From contig NZ_BMID01000001.1 in assembly GCF_014641655.1 (NCBI RefSeq), forward strand, positions 124,001 through 188,000: a DNA stretch of 64,000 bases, written 5' to 3'. The notes beneath the pieces are model-generated. The model saw only the letters and a list, made by a program, of their open reading frames with translations, ran no database searches and had not been told where the DNA came from. Below are positions 269 through 57,021 of the stretch, piece after piece. This DNA comes from Pseudoblastomonas marina. GTDB lineage: Bacteria; Pseudomonadota; Alphaproteobacteria; Sphingomonadales; Sphingomonadaceae. Within the stretch, counting starts at the first letter, position 1. The number at the start of each line of letters is the position of its first letter. The position numbers were made by a program, and so were the translations under genes.

Positions 269-2191
269 CTAAGCCCGCGCTTCCTCTACTCCCGCGCTGT
301 TGTGGCGCAGAGCCTTCAGCACCGTATCGACGATCTGCGGCGCGTTGAGACCGGCCTCGTCATACTGCTTTTCCGGCGAATCCTGGTCCTGGAACACGTC
401 GGGCAGGCGCATGGTGCGGATCTTGAGCCCGCCATCGGTGAGGCCGGTGTCGCTGGCGTGGGTCAGGACGTGCGCGCCGAGGCCGCCGATGCTGCCTTCC
501 TCGACCGTGACGACGACTTCGTGGGTCTTCATCAACCGGTCGATCAGTTCGGTGTCGAGCGGCTTGGCGAAGCGCAAGTCGGCGACGGTGGTCGATAGCC
601 CCTTGGCCTCGAGCAGGTCGGCGGCCTTGCGTGCCTCGGCGAGGCGTCCGCCGAGCGACAGGATCGCGACCTTGCTACCTTCCTTGACCACGCGGCCCTT
701 GCCGATTTCGAGCTTCTGCGGGGTCTCGGGCAATTCGACGCCCACGCCGCCGCCGCGCGGATAGCGCAGCGCGATCGGGCCGTCGTCGTACTCGGCGGCG
801 GTGTAGGTCATGTGGACCAGCTCTGCCTCGTCGCCTGCCGCCATCACCACGAAATTGGGGAGCGTGGCGAGATAGGTGATGTCGAAGCTGCCCGCATGGG
901 TCGCGCCATCGGCGCCGACCAGCCCCGCGCGGTCGATCGCGAAGCGGACCGGCAGGTTCTGGATCGCGACGTCGTGTACCACCTGGTCGTAGGCGCGCTG
1001 GAGGAAGGTCGAATAGATCGCCGCGAACGGTCGCATGCCCTGGGCCGCAAGCCCGGCGGCGAAGGTCACGCCGTGCTGTTCGGCGATGCCGACGTCGAAA
1101 GCCCGCTCGGGATGCGCCTTGGCGAAGCGATCGACGCCGGTGCCGCTCGGCATCGCGGCGGTGATCGCACAGATCCGCTTGTCGGTTTCGGCCAGCTTGG
1201 CGAGCGTATCGCCGAACACGTTCTGGTAGGCCGGTGGCCCGCCCGCGCTCTTCGCCTTCTCTCCGGTCACGACGTTGAACTTGGGCACGCCGTGATATTT
1301 GTCGTCGCTGCTTTCGGCGGGTTCGTAGCCCTTGCCCTTCTGGGTCACGACATGGACCAGGATCGGGCCCTTCTCGCTGTCGCGCACGTTCTCGAGCACC
1401 GGGATCAGGTGGTCGAGATTGTGACCGTCGATCGGGCCGACGTAGTAGAAGCCGAGTTCCTCGAACAGCGTGCCGCCGGTGACCATGCCGCGGGTGTATT
1501 CCTCGGCCTTTTCGAGGCCCGACCAGACCCGGCGCGAGAGCTTCTTGGCCGCCTTCGAGGCGAGCTGGCGCAGACCGAGATATTCGCTGCTCGAAACCAT
1601 CCGCGCGAGATAGGCCGACAGGCCGCCGACCGGCGGGGCGATCGACATGTCGTTGTCGTTGAGGATCACGATCAGGCGATTGCCCGCTTGTTCGGCATTG
1701 TTCATCGCCTCGTAGGCCATACCTGCGCTCATCGCACCGTCGCCGATCACCGCGATCGCCTTGCCCGGCTGGTCGTTTAGCTTGTTCGCGATCGCGAAGC
1801 CGAGGCCGGCGCTGATCGAGGTCGAGGAATGCGCCGCGCCGAACGGGTCGTATTCGCTTTCCGAACGCTTGGTGAAGCCCGACAAGCCGCCGCCCTGCCG
1901 CAACGTGCGGATACGATCGCGCCGACCGGTGATGATCTTGTGCGGATAGCACTGGTGGCCGACGTCCCAGATCAGTTTGTCGTCGGGCGTGTTGAAGATG
2001 TAGTGGATCGCGACCGTCAGCTCGACCACGCCGAGCCCCGAGCCGAGATGCCCGCCGCTGGTGCTGACGGCATCGATCATTTCGGCGCGCAACTCGTCGG
2101 ACAGCTGGCGGAGCTGGTCGGGCTTGAGCTTGCGGAGATCGTCGGGCGTGTCGACCGTGTCGAGCAACGGCGTATCGGGGGTAGTGGACAT
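269..2191 (-). CDS. dxs: 1-deoxy-D-xylulose-5-phosphate synthase
   Basis: A 640-residue, full-length Dxs. It condenses pyruvate and glyceraldehyde 3-phosphate to 1-deoxy-D-xylulose 5-phosphate, the first and usually flux-controlling step of the MEP isoprenoid pathway; the enzyme is a cytosolic thiamine-diphosphate- and Mg-dependent homodimer. Visible signatures are the N-terminal [12 protein letters not shown] motif (about residues 43-54), the thiamine-diphosphate motif starting at GDGAMSAG (about 150) and ending in the Asn-rich NDNDMSI, and the C-terminal transketolase-like half with [13 protein letters not shown]. The ATG start gives the usual length. In a sphingomonad the product would feed carotenoids, quinones and hopanoids. 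It stands alone, convergent with the NnrU gene. Confidence 0.97.
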
Positions 2192-19444: not shown

Positions 19445-22198
19445 TCAGAACTTCCCGCGCAGCGTCACGCCGAAGGTGCGCGGCTCGGCGAGGAACGCCG
19501 AATAGGTCTGCTGCGGCGCAACGAAGGGCGTGTTGAACGCGACCTGCGTGTACTGTTCGTCGAACAGGTTCTGGACCCAGCCCTCGATCGAGAACGCCCC
19601 GCCGATATTGGTCAGGCCGATCCGGCCGTTGACCACGACGTAGCCGTCCTGCTCCTTGCCGTAGAGCAGGTCCGAGCCGGTGTTGTAATCGTCGACCGCG
19701 CGGGCGTTGAGATAGAACAGGCCGCGCATCCCGCTGTCGCCGATTTCCGGCGTCCAGGTGAACGACATGGTCCCGATCAGCTCGGGGGCGTTCGACAGGT
19801 TGTCGTCGGGCAGCAGTCGCAGCGCCGGATCGAGCGGCTCACCGGTGTTCGAACCGACCAGGTGGTCTTCGTAGCTGGTGTCCGAATAGGTGATGCCGAG
19901 CGAGGCGCGAACATCGCGAACCGGGCTGATCGCGGCCTCGATCTCCACGCCCTGCGCGACGACGCCGTTCTTGACCTGGTCCGCGGCACAGGCCCCGGTG
20001 GTGGCGCTGGCATCGCGATCGGCACCCTGCAGGTCGGTTTCGCAGCCATTGATGTTCTGCACGAGGAAGACCGAACCGTTGAAGGTGTTCAGCTGGAAGT
20101 CGCTGAATTCCTGGTGGAATGCGGCGACGCTCAGGCTGAATTTCGGGATCGCGTACTTGAAGCCGACTTCGTAGGAATTCACCGTCTCGGCGTCGAACTG
20201 CAGGTTCGCGGTGTTGAGGTTGGCAACGTTCAGCGTGAGCGGGTTCGACAGCGCCGAGCGATCGAGGTTGAAGCCGCCGGCCTTGTAACCGCGCGAATAC
20301 GAACCGTAGATCAGCAGGTCGTCGAGCGCCTTGTAGCTGAGGATCGCGGTGCCGGTGAACTGGTCCTCGTCGCGCGAGTCGGCGATCGTCACGCCGTCGA
20401 GTTCGGAGGTCGAGTTGCCCTGGCACGAGAGCGCCAGGATGCCGCCGGCGAAACCTGCGAGGGCCGGGACCGCGAGCAGCGGGCCGACGATCGCGCGGTT
20501 GGTCGGGCAGACCGTGTTGTCGTTCCCGAAGCTCGCGTCGAAGTCCTTGCTTTCGCTGGTGTAACGCAGGCCAAGCGTGATGTCGAAGCGATCGGTGACG
20601 TGGAAGATATTATGCGTGAACAGCGCGAAGTTGTCGCTGGTCTGGTTGTAGATATCGCCCGTCCCGCCGGCATCGCTGATCGACGCGAGATTGTTGAGGC
20701 CGGCCACGATCGCGGGCGTCGCGGCACCGAAGACCGCTCCCGAATTGAGGATGGCGAAGGCCGTCGGACTGAAGCAGTTCTGCTGGGACGGATCGGGTAC
20801 GGTCACCGGAAGCGCCGGGTCGAGCGCGATCGCCAGGCGGCAGGCCACGAACGTTCCGTAATCATCGCCGAAGCGCAAGTTGTCGCGCGTCTGCAGCTTC
20901 TCGTTGGCGTAGTAGCCGCCGACCAGCCAGTCGAGGACCCCGTCGAACGCGGTGCCCTGCAGGCGGACTTCCTGCGTGAAGGTCGCGAATTCACGCGCGC
21001 CGGCGAATTCGCCCGGGGCACGGTAGAGGATGTCGACCTGGGTGTAGTCGGTGTCCGAGGCCTGGGTATTCGAATATTCGCGATAGGCGGTTATCGAGGT
21101 CAGCGAGGCATTGCCGAGATTGTAATTGATCTCGGCGCTCACCCCGTAATCCTCGGTATCGCCTTCATAGGTGCGACCCGGCGTGACATAGATATCGCGA
21201 TTATAGGTGCTCTGCGTGAAGGCACGCGGATCGTTGCCGAGGCCGATCAGGATCGGGATGATCGGGTTGGCGGTCGAGGTCAGCGGTGTGCTGCCGGTCG
21301 GCCGGGTGAACGGATCGAGTCCCGGGCTGACCAGCGCGAGCGGCGCGACCTCGGGCTGGACGAAGGTCGCGGCGCAGCAGGCCTCGTCCTTCTTCGAATA
21401 GTCGCCGACGAGGCGAATCGAGAGATCGTCGCTCGGCTCGAACAGCAGCTGGCCGCGAACGAGGTAGCGATCGCGATTGTTGACGTCGGTGTTGTTGACG
21501 ACGTCGTTGTAGAAACCGTCGCGGCTGAAATAGATGCCGTCGATGCGGCCCGCGACGGTGTCGCCGAGCGGGGCGGTGATGCCGGCCTCGATGCGCAGCG
21601 CATCGTAATTGCCGTAGGTCAGCGCGCCGTAACCGCCGAGCGTGAATTCGGGCTGCGCGGTGTAGATGCTGATCAGGCCGGCGGTGGAGTTGCGCCCGCC
21701 GAGCGTGCCCTGCGGGCCGCGCTGGATTTCGATCCGGTCGAGCGGGCCGAGCTCGCTCAGCGCGTTGCCGGAGCGCGAGCGATAGACGCCGTCGATGAAG
21801 ACCGGGACCGAACTTTCGAGACCGGGGTTGTCGCCGACCGTGCCGATGCCGCGGATACGCGCCGAACCGTTGGCTTCGTTGCCGGTCGAGGAGACCAGCA
21901 GCGAGGGCGCGACCTGGTTGAGTTCGCGGATATCGGTGGCGCCCGATCGTTCGAGCTCGGCGGCGTTGATCGCAGACACGGCGACCGGGACATCGGCGAG
22001 TTCCTGCTGGCGCCCCTGGGCGGTGATGACGATCCGGTTCTCGGCTTGCGGTGCTTCGGCCGTTTCCTGGCCATCGTCCTCGACCGATGCGTCGTCTACA
22101 TCCTGTGCGAAGGCGGGGAAGGCAAGACCGCTTCCCAGCAGTGCGATGGCGAAAAGAGAGCTGCGCGTCTTCGACACGCGGGCGAAGCGATGGGTCAT
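19445..22198 (-). CDS. TonB-dependent outer-membrane receptor
   Basis: A 917-residue TonB-dependent receptor. After a signal peptide (cleavage near FAQDVDD) comes an acidic segment and the TonB-box-like [11 protein letters not shown], then a plug domain ([50 protein letters not shown]) and a 22-strand barrel ending in aromatic LRGKF. The plug with [17 protein letters not shown] is typical of sphingomonad receptors of the type often annotated for siderophores or plant glycans; the substrate cannot be read here. It is alone, with its own promoter candidate and a terminator, downstream of pyk on the same strand. Confidence 0.93.
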
Positions 22199-22263
22199 TT
22201 GATTGTGTCCTCTCCAACACGCCGGCCAAGCCCGTCCGGCGTCAATTGCGTCCCGGTGAGAGG
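22199..22263 (-). promoter_or_regulatory. structured 5' leader of the TonB-receptor gene
   Basis: A hairpin (ACGCCGG 22219-22225 pairing with CCGGCGT 22236-22242, perfect 7 bp) lies just upstream of a strong Shine-Dalgarno whose sequence on the transcript is GGAGAGGA (complement of 22208-22215). The ribosome site therefore sits in an accessible gap between the hairpin and the ATG at 22198. GGAGAGGA is exactly complementary to the C-rich stretch of the putative small RNA at 54505-54566. Confidence 0.4.
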
Positions 22264-52857: not shown

Positions 52858-53661
52858 TCAGTCTCCCTCCGCGAGCACCGGGGGAACTAGGAACCACCCT
52901 TGGCCGATCAGCGGTTCGAGTGCGAATGCCGCGCTTTCGTCGCGCAGAAAACCGTAAAGCTCGTCGAAATCGGCGCGTCGGTCGCCCGCGATCGCCTCGA
53001 TGCAGAATTCCTCGCCGAGACGGCGGCGAAGGCCCTGCTTGCGTTCGCTCGGCGCGGGCAATGCGAGCACGTCGCGCCCTGCCGGATCGAGCATGGTGCG
53101 CGCGAGCAGCTGGCGGATCGCCTCGGTCCGGCTGCGGTCGGCACCGCTCAGCCACACGATCGTCAGCCCCTTGGCGCGCAGTCGCGACAGCGCGGGCGCA
53201 AGCTCGACCGCGATTTTCGCCACCGCATCCGGATCGAGCACCTCGTCCTGCGGATCGAGATCGATCATCACGGCGGGGGCCTGGTCGGCGCAGGCGCGCG
53301 TCTCGGGCGAAAGCGCGTCGGGATTCGCCAGCACGGTCGAGCGGCGGGTCTCGTTGGGCAAGTAGGCACGCGCCTCGGCCAGCGCGTAGGCCACGAACGC
53401 GTCGTAGGGCGTCGGCCCCGACAGCGCAGCCTGTAGCGGGAGGGGTGTCGACGCCTCGAGGCCGGTCGCGGCGCGAGTGGCCGTCGTGTCGGGGGGCGTC
53501 GGTCGCGTGGCAACCGTCTCGGGTGCTGTCTTCGCGGTGCCGCCGCGCGCGGTGGACCCGGCGATCGCGCCGCCGGCCAGCACCGGGATCGCCGCCGCGA
53601 CGCAGCCCGACAGGGCGGCCCCCAGCAGCGTCGCCAGACCGAGGCGGCCCGCGCGGATCAA
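52858..53661 (-). CDS. HAD-like lipoprotein
   Basis: A 267-residue lipoprotein: TTG start (overlap TTGA with the scoA stop), signal IRAGRLGLATLLGAALSGC with the lipobox LSGC, then a Thr/Pro-rich spacer, then a HAD-type fold: DLDPQDEVLDP (motif I, DxD), TIVWLSGADRS (motif II Ser), RKQGLRRRL (Lys) and IAGDRRADFDELYGF (motif IV). I infer an envelope acid phosphatase-like protein. Such proteins are annotated as hypothetical in sphingomonads. It is located between scoA and scoB, which is unusual. The start is decided by the lipobox; no ATG is available. Confidence 0.68.
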   Translation of the reverse strand: MIRAGRLGLATLLGAALSGCVAAAIPVLAGGAIAGSTARGGTAKTAPETVATRPTPPDTTATRAATGLEASTPLPLQAALSGPTPYDAFVAYALAEARAYLPNETRRSTVLANPDALSPETRACADQAPAVMIDLDPQDEVLDPDAVAKIAVELAPALSRLRAKGLTIVWLSGADRSRTEAIRQLLARTMLDPAGRDVLALPAPSERKQGLRRRLGEEFCIEAIAGDRRADFDELYGFLRDESAAFALEPLIGQGWFLVPPVLAEGD

Positions 53662-54365
53662 GCCTCGGCGCGCTCGCGCGTGGTGCGGAACTCGATCTTC
53701 TTGTCGTAAGGCGCGCCGACGATCATCCGCTGGACGTAGACGCCCGGCAGGTGGATGCAGTCGGGATCGAGTTCGCCCGCGGACACCACTTCCTCGACCT
53801 CGACCACGCAGACCTTGCCGCAGGTCGCGGCCGGCTGGTTGAAATTGCGTGCGGTCTTGCGGAACACGAGGTTGCCGGTCTCGTCGGCCTTCCATGCCTT
53901 CACCAGTGCGAGATCGGCGAAGATGCCCCGCTCCATCACATAGTCCTCGCCGTCGAAGCTGCGAACTTCCTTGCCCTCGGCGACCTGCGTTCCGACCCCG
54001 GTCTTGGTGAAGAAGGCGGGGATGCCCGCGCCCCCGGCGCGCATGCGCTCGGCGAGCGTTCCCTGCGGACAGAATTCGACTTCGAGTTCGCCGGCGAGAA
54101 ACTGGCGTTCGAACTCCTTGTTCTCGCCGACATAGGAGGAGATCATCTTCCTGACCTGCTTGGTGCGCAGCAGCTTGCCGATGCCTTCATTGTCGATTCC
54201 GGCATTGTTGCTGGCGAAGGTCAGGTCCTTGACCCCGCTGTCGCGCACCGCGTCGAGGAGGCGTTCGGGAATGCCGCACAGGCCGAAGCCCCCGGCGGCG
54301 ATGATCAGGCCGTCTTCGAGCAATCCTTCGAGGGCGGCGGCGGCATCGGGATAGAGTTTCTGCAT
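53658..54365 (-). CDS. scoA: 3-oxoacid CoA-transferase subunit A
   Basis: A 235-residue alpha subunit of SCOT. The glycine-rich start GGFGLCGIPERLLDA, DLTFASNNAGIDNEGIGKLL, KMISSYVGENKEFERQFLAGELEVEFCPQGTLAERMRAGG (seen in parts) and GIPAFFTKTGVGT are family signatures. I chose ATG 54365 (MQKLYPDAAAAL); the frame continues 41 codons upstream but crosses the operator-like repeat. It leads a tight minus-strand operon: scoA, HAD lipoprotein, NTF2-like lipoprotein, scoB, CaiB-type transferase. Confidence 0.94.
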   Translation of the reverse strand: MQKLYPDAAAALEGLLEDGLIIAAGGFGLCGIPERLLDAVRDSGVKDLTFASNNAGIDNEGIGKLLRTKQVRKMISSYVGENKEFERQFLAGELEVEFCPQGTLAERMRAGGAGIPAFFTKTGVGTQVAEGKEVRSFDGEDYVMERGIFADLALVKAWKADETGNLVFRKTARNFNQPAATCGKVCVVEVEEVVSAGELDPDCIHLPGVYVQRMIVGAPYDKKIEFRTTRERAEA

Positions 54366-54430
54366 GCCGCGCGGATTAAGCGGCACGAACGCGATTGTCA
54401 CGGGTCGAATTGTGGGCATTCCGCGGCGGA

Positions 54431-54451
54431 GTGTTGCGCAAGACGCAACAC
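54431..54451. promoter_or_regulatory. 8-bp inverted repeat, candidate operator
   Basis: GTGTTGCG (54431-54438), 5-base spacer CAAGA, CGCAACAC (54444-54451): a perfect dyad 66 bases upstream of the scoA start and 19 bases before the -35 of the small RNA. Its position between two divergent transcription units suits an operator for a dimeric repressor or activator. Identity unknown. Confidence 0.45.
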
Positions 54452-54469
54452 GCGGCCCGCATTTCGCAC

Positions 54470-54498
54470 TTGCACAAATTTGCTGCACCGCACATAAA
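54470..54498 (+). promoter_or_regulatory. promoter of a putative small RNA
   Basis: TTGCAC (54470-54475), 17-base spacer, CATAAA (54493-54498). The -35 matches the TTGACA consensus at 5 of 6 and the -10 matches TATAAT at 4 of 6, with ideal spacing. No plus-strand gene begins between it and the terminator at 54536. Confidence 0.5.
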
Positions 54499-54504
54499 GA
54501 CTGC

Positions 54505-54566
54505 GCCTATTAGGCATCCTCTCCCAAAACTTCCCAGCCCGGGAGCTTCGGCTCCCGGGCTTTTTT
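54505..54566 (+). ncRNA. putative ~60-nt small RNA with anti-SD stretch
   Basis: Between the candidate promoter and a textbook terminator there is no plausible ORF. The transcript would begin near 54505, carry the single-stranded CATCCTCTCCCAAAAC (54515-54530) and end with the terminator hairpin (UUCG loop). The TCCTCTCC part is complementary to a purine-rich Shine-Dalgarno such as the GGAGAGGA of the TonB-receptor leader. Similar short C-rich RNAs are known in alphaproteobacteria. It could alternatively be an attenuated leader of the CDC48-like gene. Confidence 0.5.
54536..54566 (+). terminator. intrinsic terminator with UUCG loop
   Basis: AGCCCGGGAGC (54536-54546), loop TTCG, GCTCCCGGGCT (54551-54561) and TTTTT (to 54566). 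The 11-bp perfect stem with a UUCG tetraloop and a T-tract is a very strong terminator on the plus strand, with no annotated gene upstream of it on that strand. Confidence 0.9.
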
Positions 54567-54690
54567 CTTGCTCGCTCGCTGGAACTGCAGGGCCCCCAAG
54601 GCACCTTTGCCTGGCTCGTTCATTTGCATTGGAGGGAGGGCGTTCCTAGCTCTCCCCGGCAAACGAGAACGATAACGGAGCGGGCTTTCC

Positions 54691-57021
54691 ATGGCGGATG
54701 CGAAGAGGGCGGTCGAAGAGAAGACCGTCAAACTACAGGTCGCGAACGCCAAGCAGGAGGAAAGCGGCAGCGGCATGGCCCGCATCGCGCGCTCGGCGAT
54801 GAGCGCGCTCGGAGTCACCGAAGGCGACGTGATCGAGATCGAGGGCAAGGATACTACCGTCGCACGCGTGCTTGCGCCCTATGCCGACGACGAGGGGCTC
54901 GAAGTGATCCGGCTCGATGGTCTCCAGCGCTCGAATGCCGAGGCGCGTGCGGGCGACCACGTCACCATCCGCAAGGTCGAATCGCGTCCCGCCAAGCGGG
55001 TGATCTTCGCTCCCGCCCAGCGCGAGATGAAGCTCCAGGGGCCAGGCGAGGCATTGAAACGCAATTTCTTCGGTCGTCCCTTGCTGACCGGCGATTTGGT
55101 CGCGACGCGTGGCCGCCAGCCGGTGCAGAACATGCCCCCCGAACTCGCGCGGATGGTCAACGCGCCGGCCTTCGCGCTGACCGAGATCCGCCTGTCCGTG
55201 GTGTCGACCGCACCGCGCGGCGTGGTCCATATCGACGAGACGACCGAAGTCGAATTGCGAACAGAGTTCGCCGAAGCGCAGGGCCCCGGCGCGGCGGTCA
55301 ATTACGACGATGTGGGCGGGATGGAGGAGACCATCCAGCAATTGCGCGAGATGGTCGAACTCCCGCTGCGTTATCCCGAGCTGTTCACCCGGCTCGGCGT
55401 GGATCCGCCCAAGGGTGTGCTGCTCCACGGTCCGCCGGGAACCGGCAAGACCCGGCTCGCGCAGGCGGTCGCGAACGAGAGTGAAGCGGCGTTCTTCACC
55501 ATCAACGGTCCCGAAATCATGGGCTCGGCCTATGGCGAGAGCGAAAAGCGCCTGCGCGACGTGTTCGAGGAGGCGGCGCGCAGCCAGCCCGCCATCGTCT
55601 TCATCGACGAGATCGATTCGATCGCCCCCAAGCGCGACCAAGTGCAGGGCGAAGCCGAAAAGCGCCTCGTCGCCCAGTTGCTGACGCTGATGGACGGGTT
55701 GTCGAACCGCGCCAACGTCGTGGTGATCGCAGCCACAAACCGCCCCGATGCGGTCGACGAGGCGCTGCGGCGACCCGGCCGCTTCGATCGCGAGATCGTT
55801 ATCGGTGTGCCCGACGAGAACGGGCGCCGCGAAATCCTCGCGATCCACACCCGCGGCATGCCACTCGGCGACGAAGTCGATCTCGACGAGCTGGCGCGCG
55901 GGACGCATGGTTTCGTTGGCGCCGACCTTGCCGCGCTCGCGCGCGAGGCGGCGATCGAAGCGGTCCGCCGGATCATGCCCGAGCTCGATCTCGAGGCGCA
56001 GGCGATCCCCGAGGACGTCCTCGAGAAGCTGCAGGTCGAGCGCGACGATTTCCTCGAGGCGCTGAAGCGCGTCAGCCCCTCGGCGATGCGTGAGGTGATG
56101 GTCCAGGTCCCGCAGGTCGGCTGGAAGGATGTCGGCGGGGTCGACGAGGCGGCCGACCGCTTGCGCGAGACCGTCGAACTGCCGCTCAAGGATCCCGAGA
56201 GCTTCCACCGGCTCGGCATCCGTCCGGCCAAGGGCGTGCTGCTCTACGGCCCGCCCGGCACCGGCAAGACCCTGCTGGCGAAGGCCGCGGCGCGCGAGGC
56301 GCAGGCCAATTTCATCTCGATGAAGAGCTCGGACCTGCTCAGCAAGTGGTACGGCGAGAGCGAGCAGCAGATCGCCCGCATGTTCGCCCGTGCCCGCGCG
56401 GTGGCGCCCTGCATCGTCTTTATCGACGAGATCGACAGCCTCGTGCCCGCGCGCGGCAGCGGGAGCGGCGAACCGCAGGTCACTGCGCGCGTGGTCAACA
56501 CGCTGCTCGCCGAGATGGACGGGATGGAGGAATTGCAGTCGGTGGTGGTGGTCGGCGCGACCAATCGCCCGACGCTGGTCGATCCCGCGCTGCTGCGCCC
56601 CGGGCGCTTCGACGAGCTGGTCTATGTCGGCCCGCCCGACCTCGAGGGACGCGAGCACATTCTCAGGATCCACACCAAGAAGATGCCTCTCGCCAAGGAT
56701 GTGGATCTTGCCGCGATCGCCAGGAAGACCGCGCGCTTCACCGGGGCCGATCTCGAAGACGTGGTCCGCCGCGCCGGCCTGATCGCGATCCGCAAGGAAG
56801 GCTCGGAGGTGAATGAGGTGACCGCGGAGAACTTCGCCGAGGCGCTCGAGGATTCGCGCGCCACCGTCACCGCGCAGATGGAGAAGGAATATTCGAAGAT
56901 GAAGGGCGAACTGAAGAAGCGCGCCAACGCGGTGCGTCCGATCGGCTTCGTCTGGCCCGACACGCTCGAACCCGAACGCGACGAGAAGCATCCGAACCCG
57001 ACCCCGCCCGGGATCGAATAG
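54691..57021 (+). CDS. CDC48/VAT-type AAA+ ATPase
   Basis: A 776-residue protein with the p97 architecture: an N-domain (residues 1-195, double-psi barrel KLQVANAKQEESG, ARIARSAMSALGVTEGD), D1 with Walker A HGPPGTGKTRLAQ at 247-254 and Walker B FIDEIDSIAP, and D2 with Walker A YGPPGTGKTLLAK at 520-527 and Walker B FIDEIDSLVP. Both modules keep the catalytic Glu and SRH (NRPDAVDEALRRPGRFDR and NRPTLVDPALLRPGRFDE). It should unfold substrates by ATP hydrolysis. Homologues are typical of archaea and eukaryotes, with a minority of bacteria. It is alone on the strand, after a small-RNA-like element. Confidence 0.9.
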   Translation: MADAKRAVEEKTVKLQVANAKQEESGSGMARIARSAMSALGVTEGDVIEIEGKDTTVARVLAPYADDEGLEVIRLDGLQRSNAEARAGDHVTIRKVESRPAKRVIFAPAQREMKLQGPGEALKRNFFGRPLLTGDLVATRGRQPVQNMPPELARMVNAPAFALTEIRLSVVSTAPRGVVHIDETTEVELRTEFAEAQGPGAAVNYDDVGGMEETIQQLREMVELPLRYPELFTRLGVDPPKGVLLHGPPGTGKTRLAQAVANESEAAFFTINGPEIMGSAYGESEKRLRDVFEEAARSQPAIVFIDEIDSIAPKRDQVQGEAEKRLVAQLLTLMDGLSNRANVVVIAATNRPDAVDEALRRPGRFDREIVIGVPDENGRREILAIHTRGMPLGDEVDLDELARGTHGFVGADLAALAREAAIEAVRRIMPELDLEAQAIPEDVLEKLQVERDDFLEALKRVSPSAMREVMVQVPQVGWKDVGGVDEAADRLRETVELPLKDPESFHRLGIRPAKGVLLYGPPGTGKTLLAKAAAREAQANFISMKSSDLLSKWYGESEQQIARMFARARAVAPCIVFIDEIDSLVPARGSGSGEPQVTARVVNTLLAEMDGMEELQSVVVVGATNRPTLVDPALLRPGRFDELVYVGPPDLEGREHILRIHTKKMPLAKDVDLAAIARKTARFTGADLEDVVRRAGLIAIRKEGSEVNEVTAENFAEALEDSRATVTAQMEKEYSKMKGELKKRANAVRPIGFVWPDTLEPERDEKHPNPTPPGIE

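Follow-up and report, generated by a model that had tools for sequence, protein, structure and literature searches.

SuhB from Sphingopyxis granuli TFA was reported to be a 61-nt, Hfq-dependent small RNA (sRNA) that represses the thnR mRNA at its 5' UTR, and its transcription is favored by PHB granules (PMC6563040). SisA from Caulobacter crescentus was described as a repressor of TonB receptors that acts via an anti-Shine-Dalgarno (anti-SD) core, and the alpha-R8 genes were found to adjoin the gene for N-formylglutamate amidohydrolase (FGase) in most species (PMC12559287). MmgR from S. meliloti, the first characterized member of the alpha-R8 family, was reported to be repressed by PhaR/AniA, with a dyad between the -35 and -10 elements (PMC8401924).

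An initial annotation of the window (the whole 64-kb stretch of DNA that was analyzed) had described an orphan sRNA, matched to no named family, in the divergent gap between scoA and a CDC48-like gene. The gap is as described, with gene starts at about 54419 (-) and 54691 (+), and the TTGCAC-N17-CATAAA hexamers, the C-rich stretch (CCTCTCCC at 54518-54525), and the UUCG terminator all lie where they had been placed. The orphan status was abandoned, because the segment scored 48.4 bits against Rfam RF00519 (suhB/MmgR, alpha-r8), above the gathering cut-off of 41 and over positions 1-77 of the 77 in the model. RF00519 was the sole Rfam family matched at the gathering level within the window. Judged by its sequence, the window RNA is a member of the known MmgR/SuhB/SisA family. 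The coordinates of the features are presented in Table 1.

Table 1. Features of the sRNA locus, its neighbors, and one candidate target (window coordinates)
Feature	Position	Strand	Basis
Predicted sRNA transcript, about 61-64 nt	54503..54566	+	RF00519 model match; both ends inferred
RF00519 model match	54498-54575	+	Rfam covariance search
5' hairpin GCCUAUUAGGC	54505..54515	+	predicted fold
Seed AUCCUCUCCC, anti-SD	54516..54525	+	single-stranded in predicted fold
Intrinsic terminator, UUCG loop and T run	54536..54566	+	terminator scan, fold, covariation
-35-like hexamer TTGCAC	54470..54475	+	position fixed in relatives
-10-like hexamer CATAAA	54493..54498	+	N17 after -35
Box 1, inverted repeat GTGTTGCG-CAAGA-CGCAACAC, presumed operator	54431..54451	.	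family form TTGCR-N5-YGCAA
Box 2, TTTCGCACTTGCACAAA, near-palindromic, overlaps -35, presumed operator	54462..54478	+	conserved in 70 promoters
PhaR-type site, core TGCACCGCA at 54484-54492	54478..54498	.	published 21-nt S. meliloti motif, between -35 and -10
CDC48 promoter-like element TTGCAT-N16-CTAGCT	54624..54651	+	conserved pattern in relatives
scoA-type 3-oxoacid CoA-transferase subunit A, divergent neighbor	53661..54419	-	TIGR02429; start codon uncertain
CDC48-family AAA ATPase, conserved downstream neighbor	54691..57021	+	TIGR01243, PF02359
Candidate target: ribosome-site region GGAGAGGA of TonB-dependent receptor gene (about 19448-22198)	22199..22215	-	8-nt perfect seed complement, prediction

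The alpha-R8 layout of a weak hairpin, a single-stranded C-rich core, and a rho-independent terminator is recovered for the window RNA by structure prediction and covariation. The exact alpha-R8 core UUUCCUCCCU was not found in it; UCCUCUCCCA, which differs at 4 of the 10 positions, occupies the same place and is still anti-SD. Since the core departs from UUUCCUCCCU, we assign the window RNA to a variant sub-lineage, with its membership in the family resting on the Rfam score. The window copy also does not lie beside the gene for FGase, the usual place for alpha-R8. Two RF00519 copies over the cut-off were identified in the 2.63-Mb host genome, and the second of these (G000:C1:898051-898133, - strand, 41.4 bits) is convergent with the gene for FGase. 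A weaker RF00519 match was noted in Thermus composti, among the named control genomes.

The predicted architecture of the RNA proceeds from a small 5' hairpin to a single-stranded seed and then to a strong terminator. The fold energy of the 69-nt segment is -29.8 kcal/mol (z = -4.2), which was equaled by none of 200 shuffles. The terminator stem-loop spans 54536-54561 with the T run directly after it, and 9 of the 11 pairs in its stem are G-C. The earlier description of a very strong UUCG-loop terminator is borne out by these values, as is that of a single-stranded anti-SD stretch, which is unpaired in the predicted fold and conserved. Across 30 relatives, 94.7% of the cells were paired and two-sided changes were found at 9 of the 14 pairs; for neither measure did any of 500 shuffles reach so high a value. 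Eight of these nine pairs are located in the terminator stem, and the small 5' hairpin is almost invariant and contributes little to the covariation support. The segment had also been called free of open reading frames. Several of at least 60 amino acids do run mechanically across it, so the description holds only in that none of them was, in our judgment, taken for a gene.

With regard to the neighbors, scoB turned up in 16 of 20 stretches of 10 kb. Strong relatives of the archaeal-type CDC48 ATPase (54691-57021) are nearly restricted, within the order, to Sphingomonadaceae; of 57 matches with E <= 1e-150 in a set of 147 genomes, 55 were in Sphingomonadaceae, and the other two are 50-54% identical.

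At E <= 0.001, RF00519 was detected in at least 179 of the 199 genomes of the family, a lower bound given that the scan used stricter filters that lose weak matches; at least 160 genomes had a match over the cut-off, and none was listed in 20. Using a covariance model of our own, built from 30 copies, the sRNA was located in 53 of 60 stretches directly upstream of CDC48, always on the same strand as CDC48 (53/53). These 60 stretches, chosen after the RF00519 and CDC48 match lists had been seen, comprised one per genus among the CDC48-bearing genomes not yet covered and four extras (G108, G163, G093, and G164, the last three with a match already known nearby). A further scan with the model covered 30 automatically picked CDC48 loci, some of them from genomes shared with the 60-stretch set, together with 25 of the 80 CDC48 loci from the named-genome set. 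The sRNA was found at 27 of these 30 loci and at 11 of the 13 named loci of the Sphingomonadales type (L168-L180). It lies upstream of CDC48 in the named genomes Novosphingobium sp. PC22D, N. capsulatum, Sphingomonas koreensis, Erythrobacter dokdonensis, and Novosphingopyxis baekryungensis, and the model scan gave no copy upstream of CDC48 in Sphingopyxis microcysteis (L174) or S. italica (L178).

The seed of the CDC48-linked sub-lineage is AUCCUCUCCC instead of UUUCCUCCCU, and GGCATCCTCTCC is present in all 70 of the CDC48-linked copies examined. This set, used for copies and promoters alike, combines the window with 16 linked loci of 10 kb and with the 53 linked stretches; L033, L039, L040, L042, and the second match of L087 were omitted. 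At the latter locus (G057), two sRNA copies stand in tandem ahead of CDC48, at 161-238 and 353-430 (-). The check for conservation in relatives that had been proposed with the initial annotation was thus carried out, and conservation extends far beyond the terminator.

The promoter had been described as sigma-70-like. Relative to the E. coli consensus the hexamers are weak, with 3/6 matches at -35 and 4/6 at -10 (7/12 in total). A strict sigma-70 scan (at least 9/12 hexamer matches to the E. coli consensus) found nothing at this promoter, and a strict sigma-70 promoter was dropped from consideration; a sigma-54 promoter was dropped after comparison with its consensus by eye. The promoter is called because of its conservation in relatives and not because of a consensus match, and what stands of the earlier description is that the sRNA has its own conserved promoter among relatives. 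Box 1 occurs without mismatch in 48 of the 70 promoters (1.1 of 70 in shuffles), and it begins at -64/-65 in 62 of the 66 promoters where it has at most one mismatch. With the promoters aligned on the model start, the box 2 consensus TTTCGCACTTGC is found with at most one mismatch in 65 of the 70 and with at most two in 69, and its best match sits at -36/-37 in 69.

Searching 20 genomes for the exact box 2 (TTTCGCACTTGCVMRA) gave 11 matches, with one or two in each of nine genomes, and the reversed control gave none. By position, eight of the 11 are at an sRNA of the CDC48 lineage and three are elsewhere. Box 2 was dropped as a general regulon site, the exact matches being few and mostly at the sRNA. 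The host genome has a second exact box 2 (G000:C1:451080-451095; L054, L258) ahead of a gene that resembles the one for phosphoserine aminotransferase (serC by eye), and the second copy in the sister species G059 precedes a different gene (L251). An exact box 2 is also found in G200, from another bacterial family, with no sRNA within the 220 bases read (L248).

The published 21-nt PhaR motif from S. meliloti has a single match in the window, which is at this promoter, and a putative PhaR-type site thus occupies the spacer (54478-54498) as it does in MmgR. The 9-mer TGCACCGCA is the core of the S. meliloti mmgR site and is listed among those efficiently bound by PhaR (PMC12542648, Table 3); the published 10-mer PhaR core has no exact match at the window site. 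The core YGCRNYGCR was found between -30 and +9 in 25 of the 70 promoters, most often at -12, and is absent from the other 45; in 500 shuffles the mean was 4.4 and the maximum 11. Control stretches of the same length contained the core in 2/70 cases upstream and 5/70 downstream. The core alone is common (81 occurrences in the window). The extended S. meliloti motif was present in 8 of 70 promoters versus 0.05 in shuffles. The gene for PhaR (PF07879) is found in 192 of the 199 genomes, including the host genome, and with so many positive its presence or absence has no power to test the spacer site and was dropped for that purpose.

The initial annotation had itself raised the alternative of a mere attenuated leader belonging to the CDC48-like mRNA. 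In that case, transcription from the promoter would stop at the terminator except for read-through. The constant placement on the same strand, directly upstream of CDC48, in all 53 linked stretches (of 60 taken) is what such a leader would display, but the terminator is strong and the conservation is centered on the seed. Moreover, the pattern TTG[ACG]A[ACT]-N-[CT]TA[GT][CT]T is found after the terminator and ahead of the CDC48 start in 29 of the 70 leaders (the other 41 do not fit), and the spacer of this promoter-like element is 16 in all 29 although 14-20 was permitted. Twelve copies have no CDC48 in their 1.5-kb flanks; nine of these retain box 2 with 0-1 mismatch, and five of the 12 have a PhaR core in the spacer. 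In one of the nine, L008, the CDC48 gene is about 1.5 kb off with one gene between. Because the CDC48 gene appears to have a separate promoter-like element, and because CDC48-free copies keep the same seed and box 2, we give very little credence to the proposal that the RNA is a mere leader. A G-rich stretch near 54633 in the CDC48 leader was considered as a conserved pairing partner and rejected, since by eye it is absent from most of 25 leaders.

Using our own model, FGase-linked copies were found at 18 of 30 FGase loci (E <= 0.1, weakest 0.06). All 18 contain CUCCCUGAACC, and none has box 2 within two mismatches or a PhaR core between -30 and +9. No RF00519 match was obtained at E 0.001 in the 18 FGase loci (of the 30) that were scanned, 13 of which have a match to our model (L261, L265, L266, L269, L270, L273-L277, and L279-L281). 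We estimate that a match at the cut-off score should have appeared in such a scan (48.4 bits corresponds to 7e-7 at a similar length). Rfam therefore misses the FGase lineage in those 13 loci; RF00519 does detect the FGase-linked copy of the host genome itself. It could be argued that the two copies in the host genome, both of which exceed the RF00519 cut-off, are redundant and that the window copy is a mere dosage duplicate of the canonical FGase-linked sRNA. However, the two seeds differ (AUCCUCUCCC in the window copy and UCUCCUCCCU in the FGase-linked copy), the window seed is kept in 70/70 CDC48-linked copies, and neither box 2 (within two mismatches) nor the PhaR core (between -30 and +9) is present in the FGase-linked copies (0/18). 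Redundancy is thus quite unlikely.

Start codons for the target predictions were chosen by a rule that favors SD-like sites. A perfect seed complement of at least 8 nt was found at 5 of the 19 TonB receptor starts in the host genome, and none of 2000 shuffled seeds gave as many. When TonB receptors were compared with SD-preceded ATGs of the window, matches of at least 8 nt were found in 4/12 and 5/113, respectively (p = 0.005; one of the five window controls is the window's own TonB receptor), and matches of at least 7 nt in 4/12 and 18/113, which is not significant (p = 0.14). The duplex energies of the TonB receptors versus 42 other window genes, a control group that includes the window's own TonB receptor, did not differ significantly (p = 0.085), and the same test with the seed of the other copy gave p = 0.56.

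For dctA, 31 places were listed in 30 loci, and 28 orthologues were retained after two without a usable start were dropped. A match of at least 8 nt was found in 6 of the 28 (3 of 2000 shuffled seeds gave as many) and, without the host genome, in 5 of 27 (0 of 2000). The two orthologues whose match reaches 9-10 nt rank among the closest relatives; the match of at least 8 nt is absent from 22 of the 28, including L308 and L310, which are about as close as the matching ones. The pattern GGGAGAGG-N3-14-ATG occurs at 15 places in the host genome versus 3 for the reversed pattern, a reversal that does not control for SD likeness. Eight of the 15 places look like real gene starts, namely those for a TonB receptor with a 10-nt match, a gluP-type sugar transporter (MFS), DctA, an ELFV-type amino acid dehydrogenase, an M28 peptidase, a Usp protein, an unknown protein, and a histidine kinase divergent from dctA. 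No NCBIfam model names the kinase, which may be DctB-like. Between the divergent genes for DctA and the sensor histidine kinase (G000:C1:2243070-2243279; L299, L300), GGGAGAGG, a perfect 8-nt complement of the seed, is found at both ribosome sites. Repression in trans by pairing is predicted for such targets and would be Hfq-dependent.

We consider it reasonably likely that the window RNA is a trans-acting sRNA of the RF00519 kind, with an anti-SD seed, that is gated by PHB through PhaR and represses uptake mRNAs, and that it belongs to a sub-lineage in which both the seed and the promoter are distinctive. Comparison of the sequences shows the family match, the conserved promoter boxes, the seed, the terminator, the second copy, and the CDC48 promoter-like element in many relatives. 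With Hfq, the sRNA would expose AUCCUCUCCC and pair with purine-rich ribosome sites, and this pairing would lower the translation of nutrient-uptake mRNAs such as those for TonB receptors, DctA, and the sugar MFS transporter. When PHB is scarce, PhaR, the sensor of PHB granules, would occupy the spacer site and repress the sRNA; as the granules fill, PhaR would be drawn off and the sRNA would shut down alternative uptake. Uptake genes are thus probably shut down by an RNA in well-fed cells. Boxes 1 and 2 would serve a further regulator, distinct from PhaR. The observation made in the initial annotation is confirmed and its interpretation is partly supported.

Instead of uptake genes, the sRNA might mainly control the genes for PHB granule proteins (phasins), a role that has been proposed for MmgR. 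The promoter has a PhaR-type site, and the neighboring scoA encodes a type of enzyme that works on acetoacetate. MmgR was also reported to lower phasin protein in S. meliloti (PMC8401924). However, the seed complements in the host genome include several uptake genes, and we regard a main action on phasins as unlikely. Returning to repression of uptake mRNAs, a broader scheme can be offered tentatively as one possibility. A single sRNA sub-lineage might span many genera of the Sphingomonadaceae, with a two-operator promoter read by a transcription factor other than PhaR; PhaR would supply a further input, gained or lost repeatedly. It would act as a switch from storage to uptake (with PHB full, the sRNA is on and the uptake mRNAs are off), and the FGase sibling, missed by Rfam in the scanned loci, would have a separate regulon.

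Sphingomonads degrade pollutants and plant aromatics, and the use of these bacteria is limited by carbon catabolite repression. If the window RNA is a wider form of SuhB, the boxes and the seed open a direct test of the control of uptake and degradation by a storage polymer across the family, and they point to a further regulator.

The family and its mode of action are already known, and novelty is limited to the CDC48-linked variant, which is widespread in the Sphingomonadaceae, has its own conserved switch region and an altered seed, and looks new. A CDC48-linked sub-lineage with a changed seed and a dedicated promoter was not found in the literature searched, the coverage of which did not extend to the key papers on SuhB, MmgR, and the family phylogeny. 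The window copy resembles MmgR in the placing of its putative PhaR/AniA site, which lies in the promoter spacer in both, and the 9-mer core is identical (PMC12542648, PMC8401924). It differs from MmgR in that the latter is described as the sole copy in the S. meliloti genome (PMC12559287) and as being under NtrC control as well; boxes 1 and 2 are absent from the published descriptions covered. With SisA-SisD of C. crescentus (alpha-R8), as far as the published account covered describes them, it shares the weak 5' hairpin, the single-stranded C/U-rich anti-SD core, the terminator, and the presence of several siblings per genome. The core is UUUCCUCCCU in C. crescentus and UCCUCUCCCA in the window copy, and SisA is reported beside the gene for FGase whereas the window copy is beside CDC48. 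The nearest studied RNA is SuhB of S. granuli, of which the window RNA may be an ortholog. The known target of SuhB, thnR, is a regulator of tetralin genes, and no copy was found upstream of CDC48 in the two named Sphingopyxis genomes (L174 and L178). Both RNAs are nevertheless from the same bacterial order and are of similar length (61 nt for SuhB and a predicted 61-64 nt here), and L007 and L012, from one genus that is presumably Sphingopyxis, carry the window seed, box 2 with one mismatch, and the PhaR core.
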